A stretch of 9,685 nt of DNA from assembly GCA_027728145.1 (NCBI GenBank), contig JAQBZV010000022.1, positions 1-9,685 of the forward strand, written 5' to 3'. Source of the stretch: Actinomycetota bacterium (GTDB taxonomy: Bacteria > Actinomycetota > Actinomycetes > Actinomycetales > Microbacteriaceae). This document shows, one piece after another, positions 4,396 through 8,090 of this stretch (position 1 is the first letter of the stretch; each line of letters begins with the position of its first letter). Below the pieces are notes generated by a model, which made no database searches, was not told the origin of the DNA, and was given only the letters and a program-made list of their open reading frames with translations. The position numbers were made by a program, and so were the translations under genes.

Positions 4396-5709
4396 ATGAC
4401 GGAAGAACTACCGGGAGTGGCAACTAAGCGCTCCACCGCTGAGTTGCTGGATAGCCGGGATCCACTCGCGTCCTTTCGTTCCGAGTTTTTCCACGCGGAT
4501 CCGGACCAGTGTTACCTGGATGGCAATTCACTGGGCAAGTTGCCGCTGGCCACCAGAGACTCAGTCGCCTCGTTTGTCACCAATGAGTGGGGGACTGAGC
4601 TCGTCGAAGGGTGGGGCCATTGGATCGATGAAGCCCAGGTCGCCGGTGACCTCCTGGGTTCTGCGACCTTAGGGGTGGGGCCCGGGCAAACGTTGGTCTG
4701 TGACACCACGTCGATGAACTTCTACCAACTCGCCATCGCTGCTATTCGCTCAAGGCCTGGGCGGAAGACCGTCATCATCGACTCGGCAAACTTTCCCACC
4801 GACCGTTACATCCTTGAGGGAATTGCCGAGGATCTCGGGTTGACCCTCATCACGCTGGATACGGATGGTCAGGGTGGACCGGGGGCTGTGACGGTGTCGG
4901 CAGAGCACGAGCGGGTGACGGCCGAAGCACTCGCCCCCCACCTGAGCAAGGACGTCGCACTGGTGACCTTGCAGGCCATCAACTATCGCTCCGGAGCACG
5001 CTCTGAACTCGCCGAGATTCAAGCCGCGGTCACCGCGGTCGGTGCTCACATGCTCTGGGACTGCTCCCACGCCGGAGGGGCTATCGACCTCGATTTTGAG
5101 GGCAACAAGATTAAGTTGGCCGTGGGCTGTACATACAAGTATGGAAACTCAGGGCCTGGCTCTCCGGCGTGGTTGTTTGTCCGTTCTGAGCTGCAGCAGG
5201 AACTCCAGGTGCCGATCAAAGGCTGGTTTGCTCAAGAAGACCAGTTTGTGATGGGTCCCTGGTTTGAGAAAGCCCGGGGAATCCGAGGATTTCAAGTGGC
5301 GAGTCCCTCGATTGTCGGAATCCGAGGTGTTCAAGCCAGTTACGAGATGATTCAGCGGGCGGGAATTGCCGAGATCGAGAAGAAGGCGCGACTTGGCACC
5401 GAACTGATGATCCAGCTCGTGGACGCCTGGCTGGTGCCCCACGGGTTCACCCTGGGAACGCCCCGCGAGGCCGCCCATCGGGGCGGGCACATCATCATTA
5501 ACCATCCGGAGGCTCCCACCATTGCCCGGGCGCTTCGCCAACTGGCCAATGTGGTGCCGGATTATCGCCAGCCCGATTCGATTCGGCTGGCGATATCGCC
5601 ACTGCCCACCTCCTATGTTGAGGTGTGGGATGGTTTCGACCGACTGCGAGGCCTCATGGAATCTGGTGCATATCGGGAGGTGGCTCCGCAGGAGACTAGG
5701 GTTACCTAA
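4396..5709 (+). CDS. kynU: Kynureninase
   Basis: This 437-residue, PLP-dependent cytoplasmic enzyme hydrolyses kynurenine to anthranilate and alanine. Family marks are YLDGNSLG (40-47), WGTELVEGWGHWID (65-78), the phosphate-site segment CDTTSMNFYQ (102-111), FPTDRY (133-138), the PLP-binding WDCSHAGG (221-228), and TYKYGNSGPGSPAW (246-259), in which Lys248 is the expected Schiff-base lysine. Length is normal for bacterial KynU. The protein shows a short internal echo, GIRGFQVA and GIRGVQA 13 residues apart, backed by a 17/19-base direct repeat. The ATG lacks a well-placed ribosome site and may be leaderless; GTG at codon 8 is a weaker alternative. The stop overlaps the kynA ATG (TAATG). It follows pstB by 32 bases, so some read-through from pst is possible. 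The product could serve tryptophan catabolism or supply anthranilate. Confidence 0.93.
   Translation: MTEELPGVATKRSTAELLDSRDPLASFRSEFFHADPDQCYLDGNSLGKLPLATRDSVASFVTNEWGTELVEGWGHWIDEAQVAGDLLGSATLGVGPGQTLVCDTTSMNFYQLAIAAIRSRPGRKTVIIDSANFPTDRYILEGIAEDLGLTLITLDTDGQGGPGAVTVSAEHERVTAEALAPHLSKDVALVTLQAINYRSGARSELAEIQAAVTAVGAHMLWDCSHAGGAIDLDFEGNKIKLAVGCTYKYGNSGPGSPAWLFVRSELQQELQVPIKGWFAQEDQFVMGPWFEKARGIRGFQVASPSIVGIRGVQASYEMIQRAGIAEIEKKARLGTELMIQLVDAWLVPHGFTLGTPREAAHRGGHIIINHPEAPTIARALRQLANVVPDYRQPDSIRLAISPLPTSYVEVWDGFDRLRGLMESGAYREVAPQETRVT
5563..5600 (+). repeat. 11-bp perfect inverted repeat plus adjoining 12-bp palindrome near the 3' end of kynU
   Basis: TATCGCCAGCC (5563-5573) is the exact reverse complement of GGCTGGCGATA (5585-5595), with an 11-base loop made of a CGATT tandem. 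The right arm overlaps a second perfect palindrome, GGCGATATCGCC (5589-5600). The ATCGCC unit therefore occurs three times in alternating orientation and allows alternative pairings. It lies about 110 bases before the kynA start. Confidence 0.65.
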
Positions 5710-6545
5710 TGCCTCCTGCAGAACACCAGAAAGCCGTCACCTACACGACCTATCTCAAGGTCGAGGAACTTCTGTCGCTTCAGGAGCCGCTTTCGGATGG
5801 TCCCGAGCACGATGAGTTGCTCTTCATCACCATCCACCAGGTTTATGAGCTCTGGTTCCAACAAATTCTTCACGAGCTTTCGGCGCTGCAGCCAGCGCTC
5901 GAGAAGGGTGACACCCACCGGTCTCTGGCGCTCCTCGGTCGAGTTCGCTCCATCCTGAAGACCTGTGTTCAGCAGATTGATGTGTTGGAAACGATGACGC
6001 CGTTGCAGTTTCAGTCGTTTCGTTCCCGTTTGTCCTCGGCCAGTGGGTTCCAGTCAGCCCAGTTTCGCGAAGTGGAGGCGGTTCTTGGCCGCAGAGACCA
6101 CGCGGGAGAGGACGCGAAAGAGGGAACCGGCATGAAAATGGCGGAGCACTTAGTGCCCGGGTCGCTAGCCAGAAACCGAGTGGAGGCCGCGATGGCCAGA
6201 CCGAGTGTTTGGGACTCTGCTCTCCGGTATTGCCACTCTCGAGGACATGAGATGCCACCCGAGGTTCTCGAGCGCGATGTGAGTACACCGTGGGAGGCGA
6301 GGGGCGATGTGCAAGCGGTCTTGGTGTCCCTTCACCACACCGATCCCGAGTCGGCGATGGTCTGCGAAGCTCTCGTGGACCTCGACGAGGGTCTTGGGGA
6401 GTGGCGCTATCGCCACGTGAAAATGGTGGAGCGCACCATTGGGCGCAAGCCCGGCACCGGAGGATCTTCCGGCGTGGGCTATTTGGCCTCGACTCTGTTT
6501 AACCCGGTGTTCCCTGACTTGTGGGCTATTCGAAGCCAGCTCTAA
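5709..6545 (+). CDS. kynA: Tryptophan 2,3-dioxygenase
   Basis: This 278-residue haem enzyme catalyses the first step of the kynurenine pathway, oxidising L-tryptophan to N-formylkynurenine in the cytoplasm. Family marks are TTYLKVEELLSLQ (13-25), HDELLFITIHQVYELWF (34-50) with distal His43, FQSFRSRLSSASGFQS (101-116) with Arg105 placed to hold the substrate carboxylate, EWRYRHVKMVER (231-242) with His236 as the expected haem ligand, and GTGGSSGVGYL (249-259). Length fits bacterial TDO. The ATG shares one base with the kynU stop, and AGGAG (5690-5694) is 14 bases upstream, so translational coupling is likely. Both kyn genes form one unit. The formamidase linking their reactions is not in the window and must lie elsewhere or be replaced. 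The 3' end overlaps the convergent DUF4395 gene by 4 bases. Confidence 0.95.
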   Translation: MPPAEHQKAVTYTTYLKVEELLSLQEPLSDGPEHDELLFITIHQVYELWFQQILHELSALQPALEKGDTHRSLALLGRVRSILKTCVQQIDVLETMTPLQFQSFRSRLSSASGFQSAQFREVEAVLGRRDHAGEDAKEGTGMKMAEHLVPGSLARNRVEAAMARPSVWDSALRYCHSRGHEMPPEVLERDVSTPWEARGDVQAVLVSLHHTDPESAMVCEALVDLDEGLGEWRYRHVKMVERTIGRKPGTGGSSGVGYLASTLFNPVFPDLWAIRSQL

Positions 6546-7114
6546 AGGGCATGAGAATGGGCGTCGGAGCTAAACAGCGTTCGACGCTTCGGTGGGGTGT
6601 AATCGCAGACGTCCCCAGGACATAACCGGGGCTTCTCTTTCGAGAACACTCGATACAGCTCACACCCCACGCATATTCCAAACGCCGTCTCCAAGAACAT
6701 CAGGCTGAGGCAGAAGCCACAAAACAACAGCATGTATTCGTTCTGGAGACCCAAAAACCCCATGCCCATGCACGCCACAAAAGCCATTCCAAATCCCAGG
6801 GACCAAGCGAGTCGCTTTTGTGCCGCACCCACCCACTCGGGTCGTTGGCGACGCACAATCAGAGCACCAACGGCCATCGAGGGAGCGAAGCGATGGTTGA
6901 GTCCGATGCGGATTCCCATGTCGATCAAGAACAGGATGGCGAACCCGCGAACCGGTCCGAAGTCACCGGTGAAGAATGCGGAGGAGACGGCCATGAACCC
7001 TACGAGAAAGAGGATGCCGGCGGATGCTCGGACGGCGCGCTCGTTGAAGACGGGGATGTCGATGCCCTCGACTTTTTCGCCAAAATCGTACGTTTCTGTG
7101 CGTGCAGAGGGCAT
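6542..7114 (-). CDS. DUF4395 family membrane protein, cysteine-rich
   Basis: This 190-residue protein has about four membrane segments (near 29-48, 54-71, 103-121 and 126-146) after a short hydrophilic start. The pattern of HRFAPSMAVGALIV (74-87), the QKRLAWSLG stretch and ETAFGICVGCELY (142-154) identifies the DUF4395 family, whose function is unknown to me; members are often found near thioredoxin or rhodanese-type genes. Seven cysteines include three close pairs: Cys132/135 (CGFC), Cys148/151 (CVGC) and Cys165/170 (CPGDVC). Several methionines surround Cys115 in ACMGMGF. Thiol, persulfide or metal chemistry in the membrane is therefore plausible, but unproven. The ATG has no ribosome site; a perfect TATAAT lies 6 bases upstream, so the mRNA is probably leaderless. 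A CsoR/CstR-type operator covers that promoter. It is a single gene, convergent with kynA and divergent from psuG. Family is fairly secure; role is open. Confidence 0.85.
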   Translation of the reverse strand: MPSARTETYDFGEKVEGIDIPVFNERAVRASAGILFLVGFMAVSSAFFTGDFGPVRGFAILFLIDMGIRIGLNHRFAPSMAVGALIVRRQRPEWVGAAQKRLAWSLGFGMAFVACMGMGFLGLQNEYMLLFCGFCLSLMFLETAFGICVGCELYRVFSKEKPRLCPGDVCDYTPPKRRTLFSSDAHSHAL

Positions 7115-7120
7115 GACAGA

Positions 7121-7150
7121 ATTATACCCCAGGGGGTATCAGTAGGGCAA
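7121..7150 (-). promoter_or_regulatory. Leaderless promoter of the DUF4395 gene
   Basis: On the minus strand, TTGCCC (7150-7145, 4/6 of TTGACA), an 18-base spacer and a perfect TATAAT (7126-7121) are followed 6 bases later by ATG 7114. Transcription should begin at the A of the start codon. No Shine-Dalgarno sequence lies before the ATG, which agrees. Confidence 0.75.
7124..7139. promoter_or_regulatory. CsoR/CstR-type operator palindrome
   Basis: ATACCCC-AG-GGGGTAT is a 16-bp palindrome with perfect 7-bp arms and a 2-base centre. A/T-flanked C-tract/G-tract repeats of this form are the known operators of the CsoR/RcnR/CstR repressor family, which sense Cu(I), other metals or persulfides. It overlaps three bases of the DUF4395 TATAAT box and fills part of the promoter spacer, the position expected for repression. 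It also lies about 43 bases before psuG. No csoR-like gene is in the window, so the regulator is encoded elsewhere. Confidence 0.7.
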
Positions 7151-7181: not shown

Positions 7182-8090
7182 ATGAGTCTGGTCCACGTTT
7201 CCGATGAAGTTCAGGATGCTCTGTCTGAGGGGAGACCCATTGTCGCCCTGGAGTCCACCATCATTTCCCACGGGCTTCCCCGTCCCAACAACCTCACTGC
7301 GGCCAGGGGTTTCGAGGACCAGATTCGCGTGGCTGGCGTGACGCCCGCCACGGTCGCTGTCCTCGATGGTGTCCCCACAGTGGGGCTCAGTGATAGCCAG
7401 CTGGAGCGGATTGCCGATGAGGACGTGGCGAAAGCGAGTGTCCGGGATCTCCCCATTGTCATGGGTAAAGGAATCTCGGGCGCGACCACGGTCGCGTCGA
7501 CAGCCTCCTTGGCGTCCCTCGTGGGTGTCAGAGTTTTCGCCACCGGTGGCCTGGGCGGTGTGCATCGAGGAGCGAGCGAGTCCTTTGACGAGTCTGCTGA
7601 CATCTCGGTCCTTGCTTCGACACCCATCACCGTGGTGTCAGCGGGCGTGAAGTCAATCCTGGATATCTCGGCTACTCTCGAGCGGCTCGAGACCCTCAGT
7701 GTTCCGGTTCTGGGTTATCGCACCAACATCTTTCCTGCTTTTTGGTTGAGTGAGAGTGACTATCCCTTGGACTGGCGGGTTGATGATGCCAGCGAAGTCG
7801 CGCAGATCATGCAGTCGCGCGATGCTCTGGGCTATCGCCATGGAATTGTCGTCGCTAATCCTGTTCCCCGCGAGCAACAGTGGGATCCCACCACCCACGA
7901 CCGGATGCTGGAGGAGGCGCTCGCGACAGCAACGTCGGAGGGTATCCGCGGCAAAGACGTGACGCCTTTTGTTCTGTCGTACATCGTGGAGCACTCCCGG
8001 GGTGAAAGCCTCGCCGTTAATCTGGATCTGGTCTCTCACAACATCGCGGTGGCAACCGACATTGCGAAAGCCTGGGTAGCTCTGTCGTGA
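7182..8090 (+). CDS. psuG: Pseudouridine-5'-phosphate glycosidase
   Basis: This 302-residue cytoplasmic enzyme cleaves the C-C bond of pseudouridine 5'-phosphate to uracil and ribose 5-phosphate. ALESTIISHGLPRPNN (22-37) is the family signature and carries Glu24, equivalent to the active-site Glu of E. coli PsuG. VAKASVRDLP (82-91) carries Lys84, the expected Schiff-base lysine, and SAGVKSILDI (153-162) carries Lys157, the second conserved lysine. ATGGLGGVHRGA (120-131) and SFDESADI (134-141) form the phosphate- and metal-binding parts; YRTNIFPAFW (179-188) is also conserved. Length matches the family. Its stop overlaps the start of the next kinase gene (GTGA), which fits the two-step pseudouridine salvage pathway. 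Confidence 0.95.
   Translation: MSLVHVSDEVQDALSEGRPIVALESTIISHGLPRPNNLTAARGFEDQIRVAGVTPATVAVLDGVPTVGLSDSQLERIADEDVAKASVRDLPIVMGKGISGATTVASTASLASLVGVRVFATGGLGGVHRGASESFDESADISVLASTPITVVSAGVKSILDISATLERLETLSVPVLGYRTNIFPAFWLSESDYPLDWRVDDASEVAQIMQSRDALGYRHGIVVANPVPREQQWDPTTHDRMLEEALATATSEGIRGKDVTPFVLSYIVEHSRGESLAVNLDLVSHNIAVATDIAKAWVALS

Follow-up and report, generated by a model that had tools for sequence, protein, structure and literature searches.

The CsoR-family repressor ScCsoR of Streptomyces coelicolor binds a 16-bp operator, ATACCn6GGTAT, which is present in two copies in its target promoter, one of them at −9 from the transcription start, and it leaves the DNA when Cys37 is persulfidated (PMC7533328). 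The circuit outlined there consists of four genes, encoding CsoR, a persulfide dioxygenase, TauE and a rhodanese (PMC7533328). The same source indicates that copper regulators, Geobacillus CsoR and mycobacterial RicR, use similar palindromes (PMC7533328), so that an operator of this kind cannot by itself name the signal. CstR of Enterococcus faecalis controls two sulfurtransferases and a CoA-persulfide reductase whose C-terminal part is a rhodanese domain (PMC9405070). In Thermus thermophilus, the CsoR-like regulator TTHA1953 is modulated through cysteines, and its targets include a thioredoxin and the uncharacterised predicted membrane protein TTHA1730 (PMC10318464).

We analyzed a stretch of 9,685 nt (the window), contig C16 of a 914-kb assembly that is 79% complete and whose host, we infer, belongs to the genus Pontimonas (Microbacteriaceae). 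Read directly, its plus strand carries attatacccc agggggtatc at positions 7121–7140, and the palindrome in this segment, ATACCCC-AG-GGGGTAT, pairs at 7/7 positions of its arms, with the central AG alone not self-complementary. On the minus strand, ATACCCCCTGGGGTAT is followed by AATTCTGTC and then by the ATG of a DUF4395 gene. The outer TAT of the palindrome forms half of a TATAAT, the last three operator bases opening this −10 element, and six bases (7120–7115) separate it from the start codon (7114–7112). Direct reading bore out the earlier note on this DNA, which had described a 16-bp palindrome on a TATAAT six bases before the DUF4395 ATG. Judging from the 6-nt spacing between the −10 element and the ATG, transcription of the DUF4395 gene is probably leaderless. 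The palindrome also matches ATACCn6GGTAT, the consensus of the ScCsoR operator. Allowing up to three mismatches, the window contains a single match to the operator, which is exact, against a mean of 0.17 in 200 shuffles of the window, 29 of which held at least one match. From base composition, an exact 14-base match is expected ~4e-5 times per window and 0.004 times per 914-kb genome. We consider it very probable that this site is the operator of the only known CsoR-family repressor of the genome, likely a CstR-type sulfur sensor, and that it controls DUF4395 (Table 1).

Table 1. Features at and around the predicted operator, in positions of the window.
Feature	Position	Strand	Remarks
Predicted CstR-type operator	7124-7139	-	16-bp palindrome; ATACCCCAGGGGGTAT on the plus strand, ATACCCCCTGGGGTAT on the minus strand
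-10 element TATAAT	7121-7126	-	7126-7121 as read on the minus strand; shares three bases (7124-7126) with the operator
Possible weak -35 element TTGCCC	7145-7150	-	18-nt spacer; not conserved in orthologues
DUF4395 membrane protein gene	6542-7114	-	190 aa; ATG at 7114; Pfam PF14340
psuG	7182-8090		divergent from the DUF4395 gene

The host genome contains four exact copies of the palindrome, against the 0.004 expected, preceding the genes for DUF4395, a thioredoxin (starting 27 nt past its operator), a rhodanese lipoprotein and a 38-aa cysteine-rich ORF, hereafter the microprotein. At two mismatches, six places were found compared to three for the reversed control, and for this reason only exact sites are informative in this genome. 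Two places at two mismatches were recorded, at G000:C25:7707 (L006) and G000:C64:4569 (L007).

The DUF4395 subclass represented in the window was found in 10/19 Pontimonas genomes, and all ten genes carry the operator, nine in its strict form and one with a single mismatch. In 9/9 aligned orthologues, the operator lies exactly 9 nt from the start codon, and a −10 element (TATAAT, TATAGT, TATACT or TATGCT) occupies the same place. Conservation among these nine is concentrated in the operator, where 14/16 columns are invariant vs 0/60 upstream, and mean pairwise identity reaches 95%, compared to 58% over the 60 bases that open the coding sequence and 34% upstream. The tenth orthologue, from G005, carries ATACCCCCCCTGGTAT, which has one mismatch to the strict pattern and fully matches ATACCn6GGTAT, with a GTG at 10 nt. 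In G001, the DUF4395 frame (L116) appears shifted near its start, which could be an assembly error and was left uncorrected.

The fixed spacing also bears on whether the operator might instead serve the divergent psuG, leaving DUF4395 as a mere neighbor. The psuG start lies 42 nt from the operator, on its other side, and psuG is found beside the site in eight genomes; its distance to the operator, however, varies from 39 to 53 nt (mostly 41–42), against the constant 9 nt in 9/9 on the DUF4395 side. In addition, G001 keeps the site with DUF4395 while the other side is occupied by the end of a photolyase-like gene, and psuG has a TACGCT box of its own near its ATG (both by reading). Assignment of the operator to psuG is very unlikely on these grounds, and we retain DUF4395 as its predicted target.

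Searching the 19 Pontimonas genomes with the strict pattern ATACCCNNNNGGGTAT returned 84 sites (3 to 7 per genome), whereas the reversed pattern returned 0. The genes beside 83 of these, all except the fifth site of G017, were read, 79 being assigned by a motif script and four by reading; L081 and L096 were read as the microprotein and L126 as an unnamed lipoprotein with no Pfam match, and L142 was assigned as CoA-disulfide-reductase-like through its blastp cluster. Pfam was run on one representative per gene type, and the remaining genes were named from similarity or motif. The next gene encodes a thioredoxin at 18 sites, a rhodanese lipoprotein at 17, a CoA-disulfide-reductase-like protein with a rhodanese domain (the cstR locus) at 15, the microprotein at 15 and DUF4395 at nine, these five types accounting for 74/83 sites. 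The other four of the nine gene types are a YgaP-like membrane protein (4), the SLAC1 family (2), a peroxidase family (2) and the unnamed lipoprotein (1). In 15/19 Pontimonas genomes a site precedes the CoA-disulfide-reductase-like gene at the cstR locus, whose product scores below the NCBIfam cut-off (391.6 vs 578.8 bits). In the host genome, contig C103, which carries cstR, begins within this upstream gene and the operator there is unreadable. Sulfurtransferase, persulfide reductase or dioxygenase genes, as expected of a CstR-type regulon, are among the predicted targets both in Pontimonas and in other genera. Sites are likewise present in the 9/19 Pontimonas genomes, several of them incomplete, where DUF4395 of this subclass was not found. 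Together, these sites predict the greater part of the regulon that a putative persulfide sensor would control in a genus of small-genomed actinobacteria.

As an inverted repeat, the palindrome might also be a product of chance or a structural feature, such as an attenuator hairpin, that involves no repressor. We regard this as extremely improbable given its recurrence, its spacing, its invariance and the zero control matches to the strict pattern; moreover, because it overlaps the −10 element, a hairpin would fall outside the transcript if the start is leaderless. In G005 (L080) and G013 (L092), less symmetric copies of the operator pattern lie ~67 nt ahead of a gene for a KatG-like peroxidase.

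The host genome contains one CsoR-family gene (DUF156, PF02583), and 18/19 Pontimonas genomes have one each. In the host, this gene directly follows an ORF with a rhodanese domain at its end, which in relatives corresponds to the C-terminus of the CoA-disulfide-reductase-like protein. Given the completeness of the host assembly (79%), a second regulator could be missing. All 17 full-length Pontimonas copies read retain both conserved cysteines, with AMxxC (alanine) replacing HxxxC, the Cu(I) ligand set of copper CsoR and RicR, which is thus absent from the Pontimonas regulator. The copper-type HxxxC occurs in 8/26 readable CsoR copies from 13 genomes of other genera; two of the 28 other-genus matches (L191 and L210) and the partial L072 were not classed by pattern. 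The regulator falls below every NCBIfam cut-off, its best sub-threshold matches being FrmR, RicR and RcnR. CstR proteins are not known to have the copper-ligand histidine, a distinction supported here by alignments with the Pontimonas and other-genus copies and with the best solved relatives. The chains of 7mq1–7mq3, deposited as copper-sensing CsoR, we take to be a streptococcal CstR.

The earlier note had claimed a CsoR/CstR-type operator and had tied this claim to a CsoR-family gene in the same genome, whose absence it set as refuting, to further copies of the palindrome there and to its conservation before DUF4395 orthologues, the lack of which it likewise set as refuting. The single regulator gene, the four exact copies in total and the operator on 10/10 Pontimonas genes of the subclass all support that claim. 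Because operator sequence, regulator type and gene set jointly match sulfur sensors, we interpret the site as that of a CstR-type repressor.

Of 199 genomes of the family, 16 were found to hold the subclass at E ≤ 1e-30, three of them Pontimonas; a class search gave one more. The resulting non-Pontimonas set comprises 15 loci in 14 genomes. At 8/15 loci (three in g103, three in g15 and one each in g105 and g106), operators with 0 or 1 mismatch head clusters of sulfur genes that hold DUF4395. These operator-headed clusters encode an MBL-rhodanese protein in 7/8 cases (by Pfam for L215 and by reading for the others) and TauE in 5/8, and a rhodanese gene follows DUF4395 in 6/8; the g105 cluster starts with the microprotein instead. 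Seven of the eight have a cstR-type gene no more than 4 kb away, and in G197 that gene is found elsewhere in the genome. In g80 (2/15 loci, in two genomes), operators flank DUF4395 and none is on its promoter, and the remaining 5/15 loci, three from g102 and two from g14, showed no site at up to two mismatches in the stretch fetched. The link between operator and DUF4395 is not universal, since some members have no operator. Three of the operator-less loci, both from g14 (L223 and L224) and one from g102 (L220), lie near HMA- or copper P-type ATPase-like genes (by reading, with Pfam for L224), suggesting a second, metal-linked setting for the subclass. An ArsR gene is also present in L223 (Pfam).

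These three genomes, and the similar palindromes of copper CsoR and RicR (excerpt of PMC7533328), are what would favor a copper-CsoR operator, with DUF4395 acting in copper handling. We consider this improbable. The sole regulator found has no copper-type histidine, the copper-linked DUF4395 loci carry no operator, and among the 83 sites read no copper export gene stands behind the operator. HMA was found in 17/19 Pontimonas genomes, yet among the HMA/copA genes and sites listed none are 10 kb or less apart on one contig, which is a partial test given the fragmentation of many assemblies; the G012 contig, moreover, begins with its HMA gene. Persulfide or sulfane sulfur is the most likely signal of the regulator, because its two cysteines come without the copper-type histidine and because the listed sites and listed HMA/copA genes lie apart in this way; sulfur is further favored over copper by the remaining sites, most of which stand before thioredoxin, rhodanese or CoA-disulfide-reductase-like genes. 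Of the two kinds of stress left open by the earlier note, metal or sulfur, the cysteine pattern and target genes thus speak for sulfur, while the missing histidine and, as a partial test, the lack of listed HMA genes near listed sites speak against copper.

In the mechanism we propose, the CstR-type repressor would sit between the −35 and −10 elements of the DUF4395 promoter, blocking it, and would come off the DNA once both of its cysteines are modified by reactive sulfur. The gene for DUF4395 is likely to be one that is switched on through a repressor that would sense reactive sulfur, and its product would be made together with the thioredoxin, the rhodanese lipoprotein, the CoA-disulfide (persulfide) reductase-like protein and the small cysteine-rich protein, whose genes share the same operator.

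With the ScCsoR system, the predicted regulon has in common a two-cysteine CsoR-family repressor, the operator ATACCn6GGTAT and a rhodanese target, and the clusters of related genera also contain its MBL-rhodanese dioxygenase and TauE (excerpt of PMC7533328). Unlike in that circuit, for which the excerpt names neither DUF4395 nor the microprotein (PMC7533328), the Pontimonas sites are dispersed, thioredoxin is a predicted target and a CoA-disulfide-reductase-like protein bearing a rhodanese domain is encoded in the cstR operon. The cst-like operon of E. faecalis belongs to a Firmicutes host, and the excerpt mentions neither DUF4395 nor thioredoxin among its targets (PMC9405070). The TTHA1953 regulon shares a cysteine-modulated CsoR-like regulator and a thioredoxin target with Pontimonas but differs, as far as the excerpt describes it, in its operator, TACNNTACNNNNGTANNGTA, and in its Sox genes (PMC10318464). 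The Thermus genome included as a control holds DUF4395.

The DUF4395 protein of the window matches PF14340 with 83.1 bits (cut-off 24.5) and has four predicted transmembrane helices; its AlphaFold model consists of four long helices (mean pLDDT 84.3). It contains seven cysteines, at positions 115, 132, 135, 148, 151, 165 and 170, all of which are present in 105/105 aligned sequences, comprising the window's protein and 104 of the 120 homologues listed among 718 found. Two CxxC pairs (132/135 and 148/151) lie on one predicted helix, the last (residues 125–158), and the C-terminal tail contributes a CxxxxC at 165/170. Among the operator-less members read, the cysteine pattern is whole in 4/5, L224 having no cysteine at 165. 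Compared to the canonical PF14340 copies of Pontimonas, which score ~116–126 bits against ~83 for the window's subclass, the latter adds C115, C132, C135, C165 and C170. The canonical subfamily has only the cysteines at 148 and 151 in common with it, and the CxGC motif they form (148–151) is invariant in both PF14340 subfamilies in a 53-sequence alignment. Canonical Pontimonas copies (L084 and L143) adjoin thioredoxin-like and OsmC-like genes on the cstR contig, as judged by reading.

Basic residues in the loop 72–96 and in the tail suggest a cytoplasmic location for the second CxxC pair and the tail, both of which thioredoxin or CoA-persulfide could serve there, the first pair (132/135) then being turned towards the exported rhodanese. 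On this arrangement we tentatively propose, as the likeliest of the roles considered though well short of even odds, that the protein may be a membrane thiol or persulfide relay. The idea derives from cysteine placement alone, because a PDB search with the AlphaFold model returned no clear match, known membrane thiol relays (DsbD/CcdA, VKOR) included. The two CxxC pairs and the cysteine tail would pass electrons or sulfane sulfur between cytosolic thioredoxin or CoA persulfide and the exported rhodanese.

Alternatively, DUF4395 could be a transporter or an anchor for a sulfur oxyanion or a sulfane-sulfur carrier, like TauE or the membrane domain of YgaP, with no thiol relay. Its position after TauE in five clusters of other genera would agree with such a function, as would the few Pontimonas sites that precede SLAC1 and YgaP-like membrane genes. 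The seven conserved cysteines, with two CxxC pairs on one helix, fit a redox role better, as do the thioredoxin-like and OsmC-like genes (by reading) that accompany the canonical copies in Pontimonas, and TauE is already present for export. We view transport or anchoring as slightly less probable than the relay. As for the relay, it is possible, though less likely than not, that DUF4395 is a new kind of transmembrane relay which, along with the widespread six-cysteine microprotein that shares its operator, constitutes a so far unrecognised branch of the response of actinobacteria to reactive sulfur. Through the predicted regulation, an uncharacterised membrane family gains a physiological setting in reactive sulfur, a first testable role and a list of residues.

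The microprotein of the host genome, 38 aa long and cysteine-rich, is encoded behind an exact operator at L002:1562–1675 (G000:C1). Members of its family (38 to ~60 aa, six cysteines) were found in 47/100 Microbacteriaceae genomes. Half of the 30 loci returned by the search (L229–L258), which are a subset of the matches, have an operator at 0 or 1 mismatch no more than 300 nt upstream (15/30), and the reversed control gave no match with fewer than five mismatches at these loci. Neither Pfam nor NCBIfam gave a match for the members tested, and our analysis thus points to a cysteine-rich microprotein that is unnamed in the family libraries searched. Elsewhere in the window, kynureninase-like and tryptophan 2,3-dioxygenase genes (4396–6545) lie next to each other and are convergent with the DUF4395 gene.
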